Assembly: GCF_017676345.1 (NCBI RefSeq) | Contig: NZ_JAFFZM010000011.1 | Span: forward strand, 62,001-126,000 | DNA: 64,000 bases | Source of the DNA: Streptomyces smyrnaeus | Lineage (GTDB): Bacteria > Actinomycetota > Actinomycetes > Streptomycetales > Streptomycetaceae | Reading direction: 5' to 3' | Shown here: one piece after another, positions 24,489-58,060 of the stretch | How positions within the stretch are numbered: the first letter of the stretch is position 1 | Layout of the letters: every line of letters starts with the position of its first letter | Position numbers and translations under genes: made by a program | The notes under the pieces: generated by a model | Databases searched by the model: none | What the model was told of the DNA's origin: nothing | The model's input: the letters and a program-made list of their open reading frames with translations, nothing else

Positions 24489-25199
24489 TCAGCGGCGCAG
24501 CCCCACCTGGTCGGCAAGACGCTCGACGGCGTGGTCGAAGAACGCGTCCCGGGCGTCGACGACTCCGGTGAAGTGCCCGAACAACTCGAAGCCGACCAGC
24601 CCGAAGAGCTGGGACCACGCCGCGACGGCCTCCGCGGCGACCGCCGGGGGCAACTCCACACCGATGATCCCGACCAGCCGTTCGGCATCCTTCAGCACCG
24701 CTTCCGGCGCCGCAGCCCCGCGTGCGGGCTCGCGCAGCGCACCGCAGGCGTACGCGTCGCGCAGCACGGCGAACAGGGCGAGCCCCACCCGGGCGGCCGA
24801 CTGCGTGGTGCTGGACGGCGCGGAGTACCCGGGAACGGGCGAGCCGTAGATCAGCGCGTACTCGTGCGGATGCGCCAGTCCCCACCCGCGTACCGCCCGG
24901 CAGACGGCCCGCCAGCGGACGAGATGCGAGTCCCCCACCGACTCGGCGTCGGCGAGCGCCGCTTCGGCCGCTGCTCCGACCGCGTCGTAGGCGTCCGTGA
25001 TCAGCGCCGTCAGCAGATCGTCGCGGCTGGGGAAGTACCGGTAGAGGGCCGACGAGACCATGCCGAGGCCACGGGCGACGGCGCGGAGGGAGAGCCGCGA
25101 GGCGCCCTCCTCCGCGAGATGGCGGCGCGCCTCGTCCTTGATCGCGGTGGTGATCTCCCCTCGGGCCCGCTGCCGGGCGCCCTGAATCCTGCTGCTCAT
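24489..25199 (-). CDS. TetR-family transcriptional regulator
   Basis: 236 residues from ATG 25199. N-terminal helix-turn-helix (ASRLSLRAVARGLGMVSSAL and YRYFPSRDDLL, about 34-63) and a C-terminal WHG-like ligand domain (DAYACGALREP, LFGLVGFELFGHF). Divergent from the DDN-like gene. The region between the two genes is filled by a 19-bp-period palindrome array that could contain its operators. Ligand unknown. Confidence 0.92.
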   Translation of the reverse strand: MSSRIQGARQRARGEITTAIKDEARRHLAEEGASRLSLRAVARGLGMVSSALYRYFPSRDDLLTALITDAYDAVGAAAEAALADAESVGDSHLVRWRAVCRAVRGWGLAHPHEYALIYGSPVPGYSAPSSTTQSAARVGLALFAVLRDAYACGALREPARGAAAPEAVLKDAERLVGIIGVELPPAVAAEAVAAWSQLFGLVGFELFGHFTGVVDARDAFFDHAVERLADQVGLRR

Positions 25200-25202
25200 G
25201 GC

Positions 25203-25362
25203 GAGCAGTGTCGCAGGTGTGAGAGCAGCGCTCAACAAAGCGATCGGCGCTCACCAGTGTGAGCACCGCCCTGCAGCGAGAGCACTGCTCTTGCCCAGCC
25301 GCCCCAGGAGTGCAACACTGCTCTACATCGAGAGCACCGCTCTCGAAGTGGAGCACCAGTTC
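25203..25362. repeat. 19-bp-period palindrome array A (GAGC-N3-GCTC)
   Basis: Units with centres at 25208, 25228, 25247, 25266, 25285, then (after a phase slip, degenerate unit near 25299) 25318, 25337 and 25356. Best units: AGAGCACTGCTCT (25279-25291) and TCGAGAGC-ACC-GCTCTCGA (25328-25346). The array fills most of the gap between the divergent tetR and DDN-like genes. It shares the 16-mer CGAGAGCACCGCTCTC with array B at 32548-32845. Confidence 0.75.
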
Positions 25363-25401: not shown

Positions 25402-25857
25402 ATGCCGCCCACGCCGTACGTCAAGCGCCCCGGCTGGTTCACCAACAACGTGCTGAACCGCACCGTCGCCTGGTTCTCCCGGCGAGGCATCAGCCTGGCA
25501 GGGTCCAATGTGCTCGCGGTCAAGGGCCGCAAGAGCGGCGAGTGGCGCCGTACACCCGTCAATCCACTCACCCACGAGGGCGGGACCTACCTGGTAGCGG
25601 CCCGTGGACACGTGCAGTGGACGCACAACATGCGCGCGGCCGGCGGCGGCGAGATGTTCCACGGCAGACGGGGGCGGCGCTTCACCGCGGCCGAGGTACC
25701 GGACGAGGAGAAGCCGGAGATCCTGCGGGCGTATCTGCGCAAGTGGAAGTGGGAGGTCGGGGCGTTCTTCGAGGGTGTGGGTCCGGACTCCTCCGACGAG
25801 GAGCTGAGGGCGGCGGCCGTCCGCCACCCCGTCTTCCGGCTCACCTACGTCGACTGA
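25402..25857 (+). CDS. Deazaflavin (F420)-dependent nitroreductase-family protein (DDN-like)
   Basis: 151 residues with GGAGG seven bases before the ATG. Split beta-barrel of the DDN/nitroreductase family: NVLAVKGRKSGEWRRTPVNP (about 37-56, the F420 phosphate-binding region in this family), YLVAARGHVQWTHNMRA and the C-terminal PVFRL. Members use reduced F420 to reduce quinones or nitro compounds in actinobacteria. It is divergent from a TetR gene that may repress it. Confidence 0.85.
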   Translation: MPPTPYVKRPGWFTNNVLNRTVAWFSRRGISLAGSNVLAVKGRKSGEWRRTPVNPLTHEGGTYLVAARGHVQWTHNMRAAGGGEMFHGRRGRRFTAAEVPDEEKPEILRAYLRKWKWEVGAFFEGVGPDSSDEELRAAAVRHPVFRLTYVD

Positions 25858-25901
25858 CGCCTCCCGCGCGGATCAACACGGCTCAACGCGGATCACACGG
25901 A

Positions 25902-27374
25902 TCACGCGGGACGCCGGGACGTCGCCTGGTCGCCGCCGCCTTCCCCGCCGTCACCGTCGCCGCCGTCACGCTGTGCGCCGCCGCTGCCGGTCCCGGCACC
26001 GCCGTCGGCCCCGGATACGCCCGTGTCCTGCGCGGCCTCCGCCTCCTGTTGTGCGGCCTCGCGACGGTCGAGGGTGTCCAGCGCGCGGCGGGCCACGGGG
26101 TGGACGCGGACGACCTCGGCGAGCGAGGTGGCCCCGCGGGTGAAGCGGGCGAAGACGTTCCAGGCGGGGCGGAACCCGGTGAGTGCGGCGTGGAAGAGCC
26201 CCGGGCGGCGGGAGAAGATCCGCAGCAGCCGCCGCCCCACGCCCATCTCGACGCCGAGCCCCGCCTTGACGGCAAAGGCGTAGTTGAGGGCCTGCCGCCG
26301 GGCGTCCACCGCGTCGTGCGCCTCGGCGATCCGTACGGCCCACTCCCCCGCCAGACGTCCCGAGCGGAGCGCGAAGGAGATGCCCTCGCGGGTCCAGGGC
26401 TCCAGCAGCCCGGCCGCGTCACCGCAGACCAGTACCCGGCCGCGGGAGAGGGGCGAGTCGTCGGCACGGCAGCGGGTCAGATGCCCCGAGGAGACGCGGG
26501 GCTCGAATCCGGCCAGGCCGAGGCGGCCGATGAAGTCGTCCAGATAGCGCTTGGTGGCCGCGCCCTCGCCGCGGGCGGAGATGACGCCGACGGTGAGGGT
26601 GTCGCCCTTGGGGAAGACCCAGCCGTAACTGCCCGGCAGCGGGCCCCAGTCCACCAGTACGCGCCCGGCCCAGTCCTCGGCGACGCTCTGCGGGACCGGG
26701 ATCTCGGCCTCCAGCCCCAGGTCGACCTGGTCCATCTTGACCCCGACATGGGCCCCTATCCGGCTGGCGCTGCCGTCGGCGCCGACGACGGCCCGGGCGA
26801 GAACGGGTCGTTCCTCGCCCGTCAGGACGACGGCGACCGTGCGGCGGTCGGGCACGGCCGGACCGTGCTGTTCGACCCGGGAGACCGTCACTCCGGTGCG
26901 TACCTCGGCTCCGGCCTTGACGGCGTACTCGACCAGGCCGTTGTCGAACTCGTCCCGGTTGACGAGCCCGAAGAGCATGTTGCGGGAGCGGCGGGTGCGG
27001 GTGAGCTTGCCGTTGAGGGCGAAGGTCACGGCGTGCACACGCTCGCGCAGGGGCAGGTCGAAGCCGGGGGGCAGCGCGTCGCGGGAGGGGCCGATGATGC
27101 CGCCGCCGCAGGTCTTGTAGCGGGGCAGTTCGGCCTTCTCCAGGAGCAGAACGCTGCGGCCCGCGACGGCGGCCGCGTAGGCGGCCGAGGCCCCGGCGGG
27201 TCCGGCGCCGACCACGACGACGTCCCAGACGGGGCGGTCCTCTCCCCCGTCCGCCACGGGTCCCTCGGCGGGGCGCTCGACGGGGTGCTCCTCACCGGAC
27301 CCACCCGCCTGGCCCGTGCCGGCGTTCCCCGCGGGCTCGACGTCCTCGTTCCCGGCTGCGTGCTCGCTGCTCAC
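25902..27374 (-). CDS. FAD-dependent oxidoreductase, geranylgeranyl reductase family
   Basis: 490 residues from GTG 27374 (GGGAG 11 bases upstream). After a disordered acidic N-terminus comes the FAD dinucleotide motif VVVVGAGPAGASAAYAAA (about 52-69), the family signature PRYKTCGGGI, the second FAD motif VLVCGDAAGLLEPWTREGI and a C-terminal low-complexity tail rich in Gly, Asp and Ala. Members reduce isoprenoid double bonds (for example geranylgeranyl chains) or act in menaquinone and lipid metabolism; the substrate here is not evident. Confidence 0.88.
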   Translation of the reverse strand: MSSEHAAGNEDVEPAGNAGTGQAGGSGEEHPVERPAEGPVADGGEDRPVWDVVVVGAGPAGASAAYAAAVAGRSVLLLEKAELPRYKTCGGGIIGPSRDALPPGFDLPLRERVHAVTFALNGKLTRTRRSRNMLFGLVNRDEFDNGLVEYAVKAGAEVRTGVTVSRVEQHGPAVPDRRTVAVVLTGEERPVLARAVVGADGSASRIGAHVGVKMDQVDLGLEAEIPVPQSVAEDWAGRVLVDWGPLPGSYGWVFPKGDTLTVGVISARGEGAATKRYLDDFIGRLGLAGFEPRVSSGHLTRCRADDSPLSRGRVLVCGDAAGLLEPWTREGISFALRSGRLAGEWAVRIAEAHDAVDARRQALNYAFAVKAGLGVEMGVGRRLLRIFSRRPGLFHAALTGFRPAWNVFARFTRGATSLAEVVRVHPVARRALDTLDRREAAQQEAEAAQDTGVSGADGGAGTGSGGAQRDGGDGDGGEGGGDQATSRRPA

Positions 27375-31058: not shown

Positions 31059-31934
31059 ATGGCAGGCCGAAGCGACGATGACGAGGGCCGGGGCGCCGGT
31101 CCGCGCCGGGACACCCGGGGCATCGTGCTGGCTTGCGATCTGCTGGCCCGGGTCCGGTTCCGCCGCAGACTCCCTGCCGAACCGCTCCGTCGATGGGTCG
31201 AGCACTACTGGCTGATCGACTGGGACCTGGAGGAACCGTACGTCTCCCAGGTCGTGCCGCACCCGTGCGTCAACGTGGTCTTCGAGCGGCGCGGGCCGGC
31301 GGACCTCGCTCCGGGGACCGGACTGGTCGCCGGGGTGGGCACCGGCGTCTTCTCGACCAAGTTGGAGGAGGTCGGCCGGGTGTGCGGGGTGCAGTTCAGG
31401 CCCGGCGGCTTCCGCCCCTTCCTCACACCGCCCCACCCGCTCTCCACGCTGACCGGCCGCCAACTACCGCTCGAAGAGGTGTTCGGTTCTACCGAGGACG
31501 TACCGTCCTGGATCCTGGACCCCGACCGGGAGGACGAGCGGGTGACGGCGCTCGACACCTTCCTGCTCTCCCTCTCCCCGGCCCGGGACCCGGCCGCCGA
31601 GCGGGCCATGGCGCTGGCACACCGGGTGCGCACGGACCGCTCCGTACTGCGCGTCGAACGTCTCGCCGCGGACGCCGGTATGTCCGTGCGCACCCTCCAG
31701 CGTCTGTTCGCCACCTACGTCGGGGTGACTCCGAAGTGGACGATCCTGCGATACCGCGTCCATGAGGCCATGGAGCACGCCACCACCCACCCCGAGACGG
31801 ACTGGGCCCGTCTGGCCGCCGACCTCGGGTACAGCGATCAGGCCCACCTGGTGCGCGACTTCACCGCCGCCGTGGGCGTCACCCCGTCCGCGTACGCCCG
31901 CGCCGCGGCACAGGCCCCGTCGGCCACCGGCTGA
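31059..31934 (+). CDS. AraC-family transcriptional regulator
   Basis: 291 residues from ATG 31059 (AGGA about eight bases upstream). N-terminal ligand domain of the DUF6597 type (RRWVEHYWLIDWDL, VVPHPCVNVVFE, GVQFRPGGFRPFL) and a C-terminal double helix-turn-helix (RVERLAADAGMSVRTLQRLF, about 193-212, and WARLAADLGYSDQAHLVRDF, about 248-267). Divergent from the DinB-like gene. Confidence 0.92.
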   Translation: MAGRSDDDEGRGAGPRRDTRGIVLACDLLARVRFRRRLPAEPLRRWVEHYWLIDWDLEEPYVSQVVPHPCVNVVFERRGPADLAPGTGLVAGVGTGVFSTKLEEVGRVCGVQFRPGGFRPFLTPPHPLSTLTGRQLPLEEVFGSTEDVPSWILDPDREDERVTALDTFLLSLSPARDPAAERAMALAHRVRTDRSVLRVERLAADAGMSVRTLQRLFATYVGVTPKWTILRYRVHEAMEHATTHPETDWARLAADLGYSDQAHLVRDFTAAVGVTPSAYARAAAQAPSATG

Positions 31935-32173
31935 ACTGCCGTCGCGGGCGCGCAGTGTACTCGGACGTAGGCGCGGCAGTGCGGCGGACGGGGACGGAGC
32001 AGCGCACGGGGCCGCGATAGGGACGTGTGCCGCACGCCGGAGCTGGATACCCGCTGGGCTGCGGCGCACCCGAAGAGGCCGCAGCCTGGAGACCACGGCG
32101 CCGGCCGGCGAAGTGACCGACGAGTCGGTGCCGAAGAAACCGGAATCCCTGCCACCGAGGAGGCCGGAACCTC

Positions 32174-32500
32174 ATGTCAGCACAGCAGCCGAACTCACTG
32201 CCGTTGCCCGACTACGACCAGTTGCCGGCGGGGAGTGTGGAGCACCGGATCAGGTCGCTGGGAAGTGACGAGGTGCGGCAGCTCCTGGAGTACGAGCAGG
32301 CACACGCCGACCGGCCGCAGGTGAAGCAGACCCTGACCGCGCGCCTTGACCAGCTCGCATCCGGCGCCGAGCCCTCCGGCGGCGACCCCCGCGCAGCGGG
32401 ACCCGACATTCCGCCCGACACCCCTGGCTCCTCCCCCGTCTCCCCGGCCAGTGCGGCCGAACCGGAAGAACCCCTCCGGCACGGCAAGCACGAACTGTAG
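32174..32500 (+). CDS. Small acidic protein of unknown function
   Basis: 108 residues with GAGGAGG about 11 bases before the ATG. A short structured core (LPLPDYDQLPAGSVEHRIRS to LEYEQAHADRPQVKQTLTAR, about 10-60) is followed by a Pro/Ser/Ala-rich disordered tail. It resembles small actinobacterial proteins with a helical DUF8129-like core; no function is known. Followed directly by palindrome array B. Confidence 0.6.
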   Translation: MSAQQPNSLPLPDYDQLPAGSVEHRIRSLGSDEVRQLLEYEQAHADRPQVKQTLTARLDQLASGAEPSGGDPRAAGPDIPPDTPGSSPVSPASAAEPEEPLRHGKHEL

Positions 32501-32547
32501 GCCGACCGGGTCCCACCGCCGCGCCGGACAGAACGGCGCTCAACTCC

Positions 32548-32845
32548 GAGAGCACCGCTCTCCCATCGGAGCGCCGCTCCTGGGAGGGGGCACCGCTCTT
32601 CCCTCGAAGCCGTGCTCCCCAGCGGGCCGGTGCTCTTCCACCGGAGCGGCGCTCTTGAGGCCGGAGTGCTGATCTTCGGCCGGAGCACCGCTCTCCCACT
32701 GGAGCGGCGCTCCTCAGCGGGGCGGTGCTCCTCCGCAGGGCGGTGCTCCTCCACCGGAGCGGCGCTTCACCGGATGAGCGCCGCTTCCCCCACGGATCAG
32801 CCACACTTTCGCCGGATCAGCGCCGCTCCCCCGGAGCGGCGCTGC
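32548..32845. repeat. 19-bp-period palindrome array B (GAGC-N3-GCTC)
   Basis: Sixteen units, most 18-20 bp apart, with centres at 32555, 32574, 32593, 32612, 32630, 32649, 32669, 32688, 32707, 32725, 32743, 32762, 32781, 32800 (degenerate), 32823 and 32839. Consensus unit GGAGC-NNC-GCTCY with a connecting YTCCNC tract. The period is not a multiple of three, so it is not coding. It occupies the gap between the 3' end of a small gene and the 3' end of the ROK kinase, so it is not in a promoter. Shares a 16-mer with array A at 25203-25362. Confidence 0.8.
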
Positions 32846-32869
32846 TTCGCCGGGCTGCCGACCCGGCCC

Positions 32870-33814
32870 TCATGCCACGCGTTCGCCCAGCAGCCGCCAG
32901 CCCGCTGCCGCGGCGCCGATCAGTCCGGCGTCGGTGCCGGTGGCGGCGGGGGTCAGTTCGAGGTGGCGGATGTAGGGCAGGGTCGCGTAGCGCTCCAGTT
33001 CCGCGCGGAGCGGGGCGAAGAGGACCTCGCCGGCGCGGGCGACCCCGCCGCCGATGACCGCGATGTCGAGTTCGACCAGGGCGGCGGTGGCCGCGATGGC
33101 GGCGGCCAGTGCTCGCGCGGCGCGGCCGAAGGCGGCACGGGCCACCGGGTCGCCGGCGCGGGCGGATGCGGCGACTCCCGCCGCTGTGGCGTCCTGGTCA
33201 GGGCCGGGCCGCCAGCCCGACTCCAGGGCGCGGCGGGCGATGTTGGTGCCGCTGGCGATGGTTTCGACGCAGCCGCGCGAGCCGCAAGGGCAGGGGTCGC
33301 CGTCCATGTCGACGCTGATGTGCCCGATGTGACCGGCGTTTCCGGTGGGTCCGGAGTGGAGGGCGCCGCCCAGGATCAGACCCCCGCCGACGCCCGTGGA
33401 GACAACCATGCACAGGGCGTCGGTGCGGCCTTTGGCGGCGCCCTGCCAGTGTTCGGCCGCGGCGATGGCCGGGCCGTCGCCGATCAGCGAGACGGGGAGG
33501 CCGCCCGCCCGTGCGCGCACGTCGGCGATCAGCGGGTGGTCGCGCCAGGCGGGGATGTTGACCGGGCTGACGGTGCCGGCCTTGGCGTCCACGGGTCCCG
33601 CACTGCCGATACCGACGGCGCCGACCCGGTGCCAGTGCGCGGTGGCGGCCAGTTCGCCGACCACCTCGTCGACGGTCGCACGCAGCCGCTCCGCGCTCTC
33701 CTGCGCCGGGGTGGGCCGCTGGACGCGGGCCAGCAGTCCGCCGCCGCTGTCCACCAGCGCACCCGCGATCTTGGTACCGCCGATGTCGAGCGCGGCGACG
33801 AGGTCGTTGGGCAT
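32870..33814 (-). CDS. ROK-family sugar kinase (glucokinase-like)
   Basis: 314 residues from ATG 33814 (GGAG ten bases upstream); the longer open frame is not coding. ATP-binding ALDIGGTKIAGALVD at 7-21, substrate and zinc region GHIGHISVDM and CPCGSRGCVETIASG (near 165-180). No N-terminal helix-turn-helix, so this is the kinase form: phosphorylation of glucose or a similar hexose with ATP. Divergent from a LacI regulator with a palindromic operator between them. Confidence 0.9.
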   Translation of the reverse strand: MPNDLVAALDIGGTKIAGALVDSGGGLLARVQRPTPAQESAERLRATVDEVVGELAATAHWHRVGAVGIGSAGPVDAKAGTVSPVNIPAWRDHPLIADVRARAGGLPVSLIGDGPAIAAAEHWQGAAKGRTDALCMVVSTGVGGGLILGGALHSGPTGNAGHIGHISVDMDGDPCPCGSRGCVETIASGTNIARRALESGWRPGPDQDATAAGVAASARAGDPVARAAFGRAARALAAAIAATAALVELDIAVIGGGVARAGEVLFAPLRAELERYATLPYIRHLELTPAATGTDAGLIGAAAAGWRLLGERVA

Positions 33815-33901
33815 GGCTGGTCGACTCCTGCGCGTGCGGTTGGACGGACCCGCACGGTGCGCGGGGCGGACCGCCTCAGTCTGGCAAGACTTACGTGATC
33901 T

Positions 33902-57295: not shown

Positions 57296-58024
57296 ATGAG
57301 TGACACGAGTCTGCGTGTGGTCTGGGTCTACCCCGACCTGCTGAGCACGTACGGCGACCAGGGCAACGTGCTCGTGGTGGAGCGGCGGGCGCGGCAGCGC
57401 GGTCTGGACGTCCAGCGGCTGGACGTCCGCTCGGACCAGCCGATCCCGACGTCCGGTGACATCTATCTGATCGGCGGCGGGGAGGACCGGCCGCAGCGGC
57501 TGGCGGCCGAGCGGCTGCTGCGCGACGGCGGTCTGAACCGGGCCGTGGACAACGGTGCCATCGTCTTCGCGGTGTGCGCCGGCTACCAGATCATGGGCCA
57601 CGAGTTCGTCAACGACCTCGGCGAGCGCTCCGCCGGGCTCGGGCTGCTGGACGTGGTCAGCAGCCGGGGCGAGGCCGAGCGGTGTGTGGGCGACGTCCTC
57701 GGCGAAGCCGACGACCAGCTGCGCCTCCCCGAGCTCACCGGCTTCGAGAACCACCAGGGCATCACCCACCTCGGCCCCGGGGTGCGCCCGCTCGCCCGGG
57801 TGCGGCTCGGCAACGGCAACGGCACGGGTGACGGCACCGAGGGTGCCTGGCGGGACACGGTCTTCGGGACGTACCTGCACGGCCCGGTGCTGGCCCGCAA
57901 CCCGCAGATCGCGGATCTGCTGATCAAGCTGTCGCTCGATGTGAACGCGCTGCCACCGACCGACGACACCTGGTACGAGGCCCTGCGGCAGGAGCGGATC
58001 GCCGCCGCGACGCAGCCGGCCTGA
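57296..58024 (+). CDS. gatD: Lipid II isoglutaminyl synthase, glutaminase subunit GatD
   Basis: 242 residues, AAGGAG nine bases upstream. Class I glutaminase fold of the CobB/CobQ type: nucleophile Cys in FAVCAGYQIMG (near 94), GFENHQGITHLGPG, and the catalytic His in GTYLHGPVLARNP. Supplies ammonia to MurT. Operon with murT; strong terminator follows. Confidence 0.97.
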   Translation: MSDTSLRVVWVYPDLLSTYGDQGNVLVVERRARQRGLDVQRLDVRSDQPIPTSGDIYLIGGGEDRPQRLAAERLLRDGGLNRAVDNGAIVFAVCAGYQIMGHEFVNDLGERSAGLGLLDVVSSRGEAERCVGDVLGEADDQLRLPELTGFENHQGITHLGPGVRPLARVRLGNGNGTGDGTEGAWRDTVFGTYLHGPVLARNPQIADLLIKLSLDVNALPPTDDTWYEALRQERIAAATQPA

Positions 58025-58060
58025 TCCTCCCACTCCGCGCCTGATCCTCCCACTCCGCGC
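58021..58060. repeat. Perfect 20-bp tandem duplication at the gatD stop
   Basis: CTGATCCTCCCACTCCGCGC occurs twice head to tail; the first copy contains the TGA of gatD. Confidence 0.95.

Follow-up and report, generated by a model that had tools for sequence, protein, structure and literature searches.

An array of operator-like palindromes in Streptomyces smyrnaeus and a TetR-family regulator that may bind it

The 64,000-nucleotide stretch of Streptomyces smyrnaeus DNA that was analysed here (the window) contains a tandem array of short palindromes in the gap between two convergent genes. We propose that this main array is an operator array that has expanded to about 17 sites; it would bind, and probably also titrate, a TetR-family regulator with a TetR_C_33 (WHG-type) domain encoded 7.3 kb away. 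This reading rests on sequence comparisons, and we would give it an even chance of being correct. The evidence for it comes from the regulator's own promoter, which holds the same palindrome at the same pitch, from the conservation of these sites upstream of orthologous genes, and from the independent variation of the two palindrome arms. The strongest rival is a near-neutral satellite that was seeded from an operator.

The main array and its flanking genes

The main array is a real tandem array. Its autocorrelation at lag 19 amounts to 0.492, compared with a mean of 0.305 (sd 0.026) in 1000 dinucleotide shuffles, and the maximum in these shuffles at any lag from 10 to 60 was 0.421. The value of 0.492 was also the highest over lags 10 to 60 among 320-bp segments taken every 20 bp along the 64 kb. 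Autocorrelation had been suggested as a check in the original prediction, and the 19-bp peak does stand above the shuffled controls. Tandem Repeats Finder reported a period of 19 bp at 32628-32766 and 32758-32853, and a period of 18 bp at 32704-32752. The degenerate 11-bp core, the 8-bp gap and the 19-bp period of the main array do not correspond to a CRISPR, in which nearly identical repeats alternate with longer, unique spacers. Elsewhere in the window, at 58019-58060, a 20-bp unit (GCCTGATCCTCCCACTCCGC) is present in 2.1 copies with 100% identity.

The original prediction had described about 16 units beginning at 32548. The periodic array stood, whereas the count and the start had to be revised to about 17 units with the first, GAACGGCGCTC, at 32531. 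Within 32531-32844, 16 cores match the consensus at 9 or more of its 11 positions, and five are perfect copies of GAGCRSYGCTC. The first 13 predicted centres were exact to the base, the cores starting five bases before them at 32550, 32569, 32588, 32607, 32625, 32644, 32664, 32683, 32702, 32720, 32738, 32757 and 32776, with steps of 18-20 bp up to the last of these. The three remaining centres, given as about 32800, 32823 and 32839, were only approximate and fit a badly decayed unit at 32795 and two cores with 10 of 11 matches at 32818 and 32834.

Table 1. Coordinates of the two arrays and the neighbouring genes in the window
Feature	Coordinates	Strand	Remarks
TetR-family regulator, 236 aa, TetR_N + TetR_C_33	24489..25199	-	candidate array binder
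Second array, same core and 19-bp pitch	25204..25361	.	divergent promoter between tetR and F420 gene
F420H2-dependent quinone reductase family gene	25402..25857	+	divergent partner of tetR
108-aa ORF (ORF108)	32174..32500	+	stop adjoins array on left
Main array, ~17 units, 11-bp palindromic core	32531..32844	.	consensus GAGC-RSY-GCTC, mostly 18-20 bp steps
ROK family kinase gene	32870..33826	-	stop adjoins array on right; start codon approximate

The gap that holds the main array measures 369 bp. The flanks are convergent, as had been described, with the stop of ORF108 at 32500 and that of the ROK kinase gene starting at 32870. The similarity of ORF108 to the lipid droplet-associated protein Rv1109c family is weak and falls below the cutoff. 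The remark that operators are unexpected between convergent gene ends was a fair one, and the main array is unlikely to be a plain promoter operator. An iteron-like array had been offered as one option, and in the strict sense it does not hold: the two flanking genes are the ROK kinase gene and ORF108, neither of them a replication initiator gene, and the array unit recurs at several other places in the same genome. Judged by these flanks and by the recurrence of the unit, the main array does not look like a plasmid iteron.

Pure assembly error appears an unlikely source of the main array, because Streptomyces oryzae carries a similar array that starts at the stop codon of the same ROK gene.

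The TetR-family regulator and its conserved sites

In the second array (Table 1), six sites match the core at 9 or more of 11 positions (25223, 25242, 25261, 25280, 25313 and 25332), three of them perfectly, and weak sites lie at 25204 and 25351. All eight perfect cores of the window fall within the two arrays, five in the main array and three in the tetR promoter. The nearest solved structures of the regulator, as judged by sequence, are those of Rv1816 (5d1r, E 2.4e-37) and SCO4313 (2oi8, E 1.2e-30), and its TetR_C_33 domain is also named WHG. Since the promoter of its gene has such sites at the pitch of the main array, this regulator is the likely binder, and the protein-binding option of the original prediction thereby gains support and a named candidate. 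The quinone reductase gene is likely to be co-regulated with tetR. Just past its stop codon, at 25867-25909, lies a short GGATCA-rich repeat that has a 19-bp period and does not contain the GAGC core.

The palindrome is conserved upstream of tetR orthologues beyond chance. Sites that match the core at 10 or more of 11 positions were counted in the 300 bp upstream and the first 30 bp of genes for relatives that are 39-100% identical, with start positions extrapolated from tblastn. After removal of two duplicate sequences, the 66 inputs left 64 loci, nine of which had first been found through the motif or its arrays, which makes their use circular; the other 55, with the S. smyrnaeus genome itself included, were found through the protein alone. 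At least two sites were present at 53 of these 55 protein-found loci, the exceptions being a Pseudonocardia locus (L141) and a metagenome-derived locus (L131) with one site each. In the full set at least one site was found at 64 of 64 loci and at least two at 62, compared with 104 and 1, respectively, of 1280 random control windows from the same loci. Moreover, 96 of 96 Streptomyces tetR promoters, a set that overlaps with the 55 and 64 loci, contain at least two sites. The named sources of site-bearing orthologues include Streptomyces, Microtetraspora, Tsukamurella, Georgenia and Pseudokineococcus, and one Streptomyces tetR gene (genome G021) is preceded by up to 13 sites within 450 bp.

Among five genes that were tested at these loci (those for TetR, a response regulator, a kinase, the F420 reductase and a GGR homologue), tetR was the only constant one. 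The other four were all undetected at 11 of 32 loci, and six of these 11 span just 3-5 kb. In two genomes, G127 and G177, a 4-kb insert (L242 4368-8500 and L243 10981-15128) parts tetR from the F420 gene, and two sites remain on each side of it.

The variation among units suggests that the unit functions as DNA, through recognition by a protein dimer, and not as an RNA hairpin. As column conservation computed from motif-chosen sites is biased, units were instead taken by phase alone from 16 periodic stretches; these gave 127 units, 120 of them distinct within their array, the stretches themselves having been found via the motif and some being orthologous to each other. In the 120 distinct units the arms carry 0.7-2.1 bits of information and the spacer 0.02-0.5 bits. 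Over the four arm pairs, both sides were changed in 4 units, where 4.5 would be expected if the changes were independent, and one of the 4 was complementary. The outer two of the three centre bases were complementary less often than expected (43 versus 57.6). The 120 distinct units showed no covariation of the arms of the kind expected from the stem of an RNA hairpin. Both half-sites are thus conserved and vary independently of each other, as a protein dimer would impose.

Dispersal, gain and loss of the arrays

Pairs of sites with a 19-bp spacing (at most one mismatch) occur in 118 of 199 Streptomyces genomes, compared with 3 of 199 for a reversed-pattern control. Exact pairs were matched in 76 of the 199 genomes, and the matching control gave 7 matches in 6 of 199. 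Among the 75 exact pairs listed, with start-to-start distances of 12-41 bp, at least 30 were spaced at 19 bp and at least 32 at 37-39 bp. Of these 32, among the matches listed, five represent one orthologous coding place, and six pairs at 37 bp and two at 38 bp are internal repeats of individual arrays in G194 and G216.

The places occupied by arrays were recorded in a handful of genomes picked for their arrays rather than in a genus-wide census, and gene limits outside the window are our own ORF calls, with 16 proteins checked by Pfam. Several arrays lie in convergent gaps, namely between a metallo-hydrolase and a Crp-family gene in G021, at the end of a HAD hydrolase gene in G223 and G074, at argR in G006, and between an NmrA-like and a PALP-family gene in S. 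oryzae. The same HAD hydrolase gene end in G144, where no partner gene was called, likewise carries an array. Since other convergent gaps hold arrays too, the placement outside promoters is not peculiar to the main array of the window.

Sites were also found upstream of cydA, which encodes cytochrome bd oxidase subunit I, in G071 (L210 14665-14966), G144 (L216 14917-14946), G223 (L200 4520-4568) and G074 (L204 2765-3130, 16 units). This suggests a respiratory or quinone-linked target in that clade, of which G223 and G074 have no detected regulator orthologue. Further units are located in the spacer before a Hen1 gene and inside a two-ABC-transporter gene downstream of cydA. In the S. smyrnaeus genome itself, units lie next to a CbiQ-family gene, either at its beginning or immediately upstream of it. 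At the start of what is apparently the same gene, S. oryzae has an array of about 400 bp (L224 7701-8097) with a higher-order repeat of 72 bp (19+19+34).

Units are present inside coding genes as well, specifically those for a DUF2891 protein and a GFO/IDH/MocA oxidoreductase. The statement that a 19-bp period rules out coding was therefore too strong, as units like those of the main array lie within the DUF2891 gene of the same genome. There (contig C45, L046 18460-18595) they code for a linker that varies in length and sequence among our strain, Streptomyces spirodelae and S. oryzae, with the reading frame kept. Palindrome pairs in the GFO/IDH/MocA gene (L103 11922-12087) have similar counterparts in G163, G211, G026, G022 and G134. 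G022 and G026 are both without the regulator, and protein constraint or relic operators are both conceivable.

As judged from comparison with its relatives, the main array is evolutionarily unstable. S. spirodelae is syntenic, with 85-89% identity in 8 of 9 aligned blocks, and here the main array is absent and the two stop codons are 3 bp apart, compared with 369 bp in S. smyrnaeus. S. oryzae has an array of about 270 bp with different spacers that begins at the stop codon of the same ROK gene; its contig with ORF108 ends just after ORF108, so that the junction falls outside the sequence. The search of close relatives that the original prediction had proposed thus gave a divided answer, with the array absent from one species and present in the other. 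In G127 and G177, ORF108 was undetected and no array was found beside the ROK gene. A DNA search with 32174-33000 in 61 genomes, including that of S. smyrnaeus, returned mostly matches to the flanking genes and no orthologous array; the matches to parts of the array in G021 are arrays at other places. A gain before the split from S. oryzae or a loss in S. spirodelae may each fit these data.

In S. oryzae, a second TetR gene (L250 1851-2540), whose product is 35% identical to the regulator of the window, lies near the array beyond the ROK gene. It stands where the window has ORF108, and a rearrangement at the array is possible.

Association with the regulator and possible roles of the arrays

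Because the main array lies between two 3' ends, it would be unlikely to switch a promoter and more likely to act as a decoy, and its position outside promoters, in a convergent gap, fits such a role. It has probably grown recently, through the tandem duplication of operator units. Regulator dimers would occupy consecutive sites, perhaps cooperatively, with each 19-bp step made up of a palindrome of about 15 bp and some 4 bp more. The array would most likely serve as a decoy of high capacity that sequesters the regulator. Provided that tetR is repressed by its own product, such a decoy would raise regulator synthesis, and it would alter the threshold at which the real targets are released, these being the regulator's own promoter, the quinone reductase gene and perhaps cydA in other species. 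For E. coli, PMC7505660 describes that decoy sites raise the expression of an autorepressed gene and of its targets.

Genomes with the regulator have array pairs more often than those without it. In the raw comparison, pairs were present in 102 of 142 genomes with TetR and in 16 of 57 without (odds ratio 6.5), a value that is inflated because pairs in the tetR promoter itself are counted. With own-promoter pairs subtracted, for which 60 more promoters were added, the odds ratio is 3.1 and still significant. In this comparison, in which ancestry was ignored, a pair elsewhere in the genome was found in 46 of 96 genomes with and 12 of 53 without the regulator (Fisher p 0.003), and at least three such pairs in 27 of 96 versus 4 of 53 (p 0.003, ancestry likewise ignored). 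Genomes with more sites in the tetR promoter also tend to have more pairs elsewhere (rho 0.48, p 7e-7, n=96, again with ancestry ignored). The same correlation was not significant in the 30 best-TetR genomes (rho 0.22, p 0.24), and it reached a rho of 0.58 in 37 genomes, seven of which had been chosen because of their arrays. The 96 positives comprise the genomes ranked highest in the regulator search, with G001 (79% complete) left out. The 53 negatives omit G074 and G118, which are less than 90% complete, and G019 and G218, in which the regulator gene is split; negative here means no match better than about 1e-50, and several negatives hold more distant relatives. In the regulator search, 14 candidates were scored per genome, and 18 genomes were searched again with a profile.

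Arrays had been expected, though not as a defining property, to be missing where the regulator is missing, and this was not the case. G223, which consists of one contig, and G006 contained no relative of the regulator at E 1e-15 with the orthologue profile, and both carry intergenic arrays, G223 with 20 pairs at up to two mismatches and G006 with a convergent array of five units. G074 (82% complete) has large arrays and a regulator match at the level of paralogues only. G071 and G144 share several array places with G223 and do have the regulator. A recent loss of the regulator from the genomes that hold arrays without it is possible.

Further observations count against the regulator reading. 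S. spirodelae does without the main array; a number of conserved pairs are intragenic and might be preserved by constraint on the encoded protein; and two of the four genomes with cydA sites (G223 and G074) have no detected orthologue. A near-neutral satellite seeded from an operator, which may still bind TetR while having no selected role at this place, is to be considered as a possible, if less favoured, account. Such a satellite would have grown by tandem duplication where extra DNA does little harm. It is a serious rival because intergenic arrays are present in G223, G006 and the incomplete G074, where no orthologue was detected. It also agrees with the lineage-specific occurrence of the main array, which is absent from the 3-bp gap of S. 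spirodelae and was not found beside the ROK gene in G127 and G177, with the varying lengths and the higher-order 38-bp and 72-bp repeats of other arrays, and with the units in the variable linker of the DUF2891 protein. Since the presence and the length of the array vary among close relatives, satellite-like growth, which the original prediction had listed as slippage, is itself supported. On the other hand, arms are kept while spacers drift in the phase-chosen units, which requires selection or else repeated homogenisation. Genomes with the regulator more often have pairs elsewhere, and a position that is probably regulatory, the region upstream of cydA, has sites in G071, G144, G223 and G074, perhaps through one inherited event. 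Pure neutrality is made less likely by the arm conservation and by the regulator-linked enrichment, without the matter being settled.

Binding of the arrays by some other protein, such as a second TetR paralogue, for which the tetR promoter would be only one target, is improbable. The intergenic arrays of the regulator-less G223 and G006 and the closeness of the second TetR gene of S. oryzae (35% identical) to an array would suit this idea, whereas the sites accompany the tetR gene from genus to genus even without the other neighbours tested, and occur in 96 of 96 Streptomyces promoters examined. We give similarly little weight to the view that the regulator does more than repress locally and coats the 19-bp arrays scattered over convergent gaps, operon spacers and coding sequence, so that the covered arrays would serve as chromosomal landmarks or as transcription barriers between neighbouring genes and would be rapidly gained and lost as Streptomyces species diverge. 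This would liken the regulator to dispersed-site TetR proteins such as SlmA.

It is very improbable that both convergent transcripts enter the array and are terminated or stabilised by a chain of hairpins, the multi-hairpin RNA end of the original prediction: the array does sit between two 3' ends, and both strands of the gap fold far better than shuffled sequences (z -7.0 and -6.5), but palindromes fold as RNA by construction, which makes this strong folding non-discriminating, the arm changes are uncompensated and show no covariation, the same units are present in the divergent promoters upstream of tetR, and an Rfam search of 31900-33500 gave two weak matches, none at gathering score.

Among known systems, one close kind is that of autoregulated TetR regulators with palindromic operators in a divergent promoter (here PF13305/TetR_C_33, with Rv1816 and SCO4313 as structurally solved relatives). 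As in those systems, a regulator gene and a divergent redox-enzyme partner have palindromes between them that are kept across orthologues. Autoregulated TetR promoters typically hold one or two operators, whereas here there are up to 13 sites in 450 bp (G021) and large arrays outside promoters. The E. coli datA locus, a cluster of DnaA boxes, is a natural titration locus. The main array resembles it as a dense cluster of sites away from the promoters it would influence, for which a role as protein buffer is proposed, and differs from it in that the presumed binder is a TetR regulator, the pitch is an even 19 bp and titration is inferred. REP and BIME elements are dispersed short palindromes; the present units likewise are short palindromes that recur in intergenic gaps, but they have a fixed direct pitch of 19 bp, arms without covariation and a tie to a TetR promoter.

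Intragenic, transcriptionally inert sites of E. coli PhoB are described in PMC10294691. Like those, the sites described here would be regulator sites outside promoters; unlike them, they are tandem, have a fixed pitch and are known from sequence alone. Bacterial satellites, with a count of those in S. coelicolor, are treated in PMC6749651, Rv1816 is covered in PMC9430723, and PMC4681348 contains a general remark on palindromes in 3' UTRs. Searches with the motif string and with words, whose scope mostly excluded subscription papers, found, among the papers listed, no description of the GAGC-RSY-GCTC motif or of arrays like these. TetR proteins that regulate themselves through palindromic operators are of a known kind, and long, dispersed, fixed-pitch arrays of one operator outside promoters look like a new form of it.

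Our findings turn an anonymous repeat into a testable regulator-and-site system, in which a conserved actinobacterial TetR protein is paired with an operator-like site that has been multiplied into regular arrays, at different places in different Streptomyces species. A respiratory or quinone signal is hinted at by the cydA sites of one clade and by the divergent F420H2-dependent quinone reductase gene. Should the arrays indeed bind the regulator and titrate it, they would represent a natural, fast-evolving way of tuning a threshold through changes in decoy-site number. Otherwise, they would be a clear case of a transcription-factor site that has turned into a bacterial satellite.
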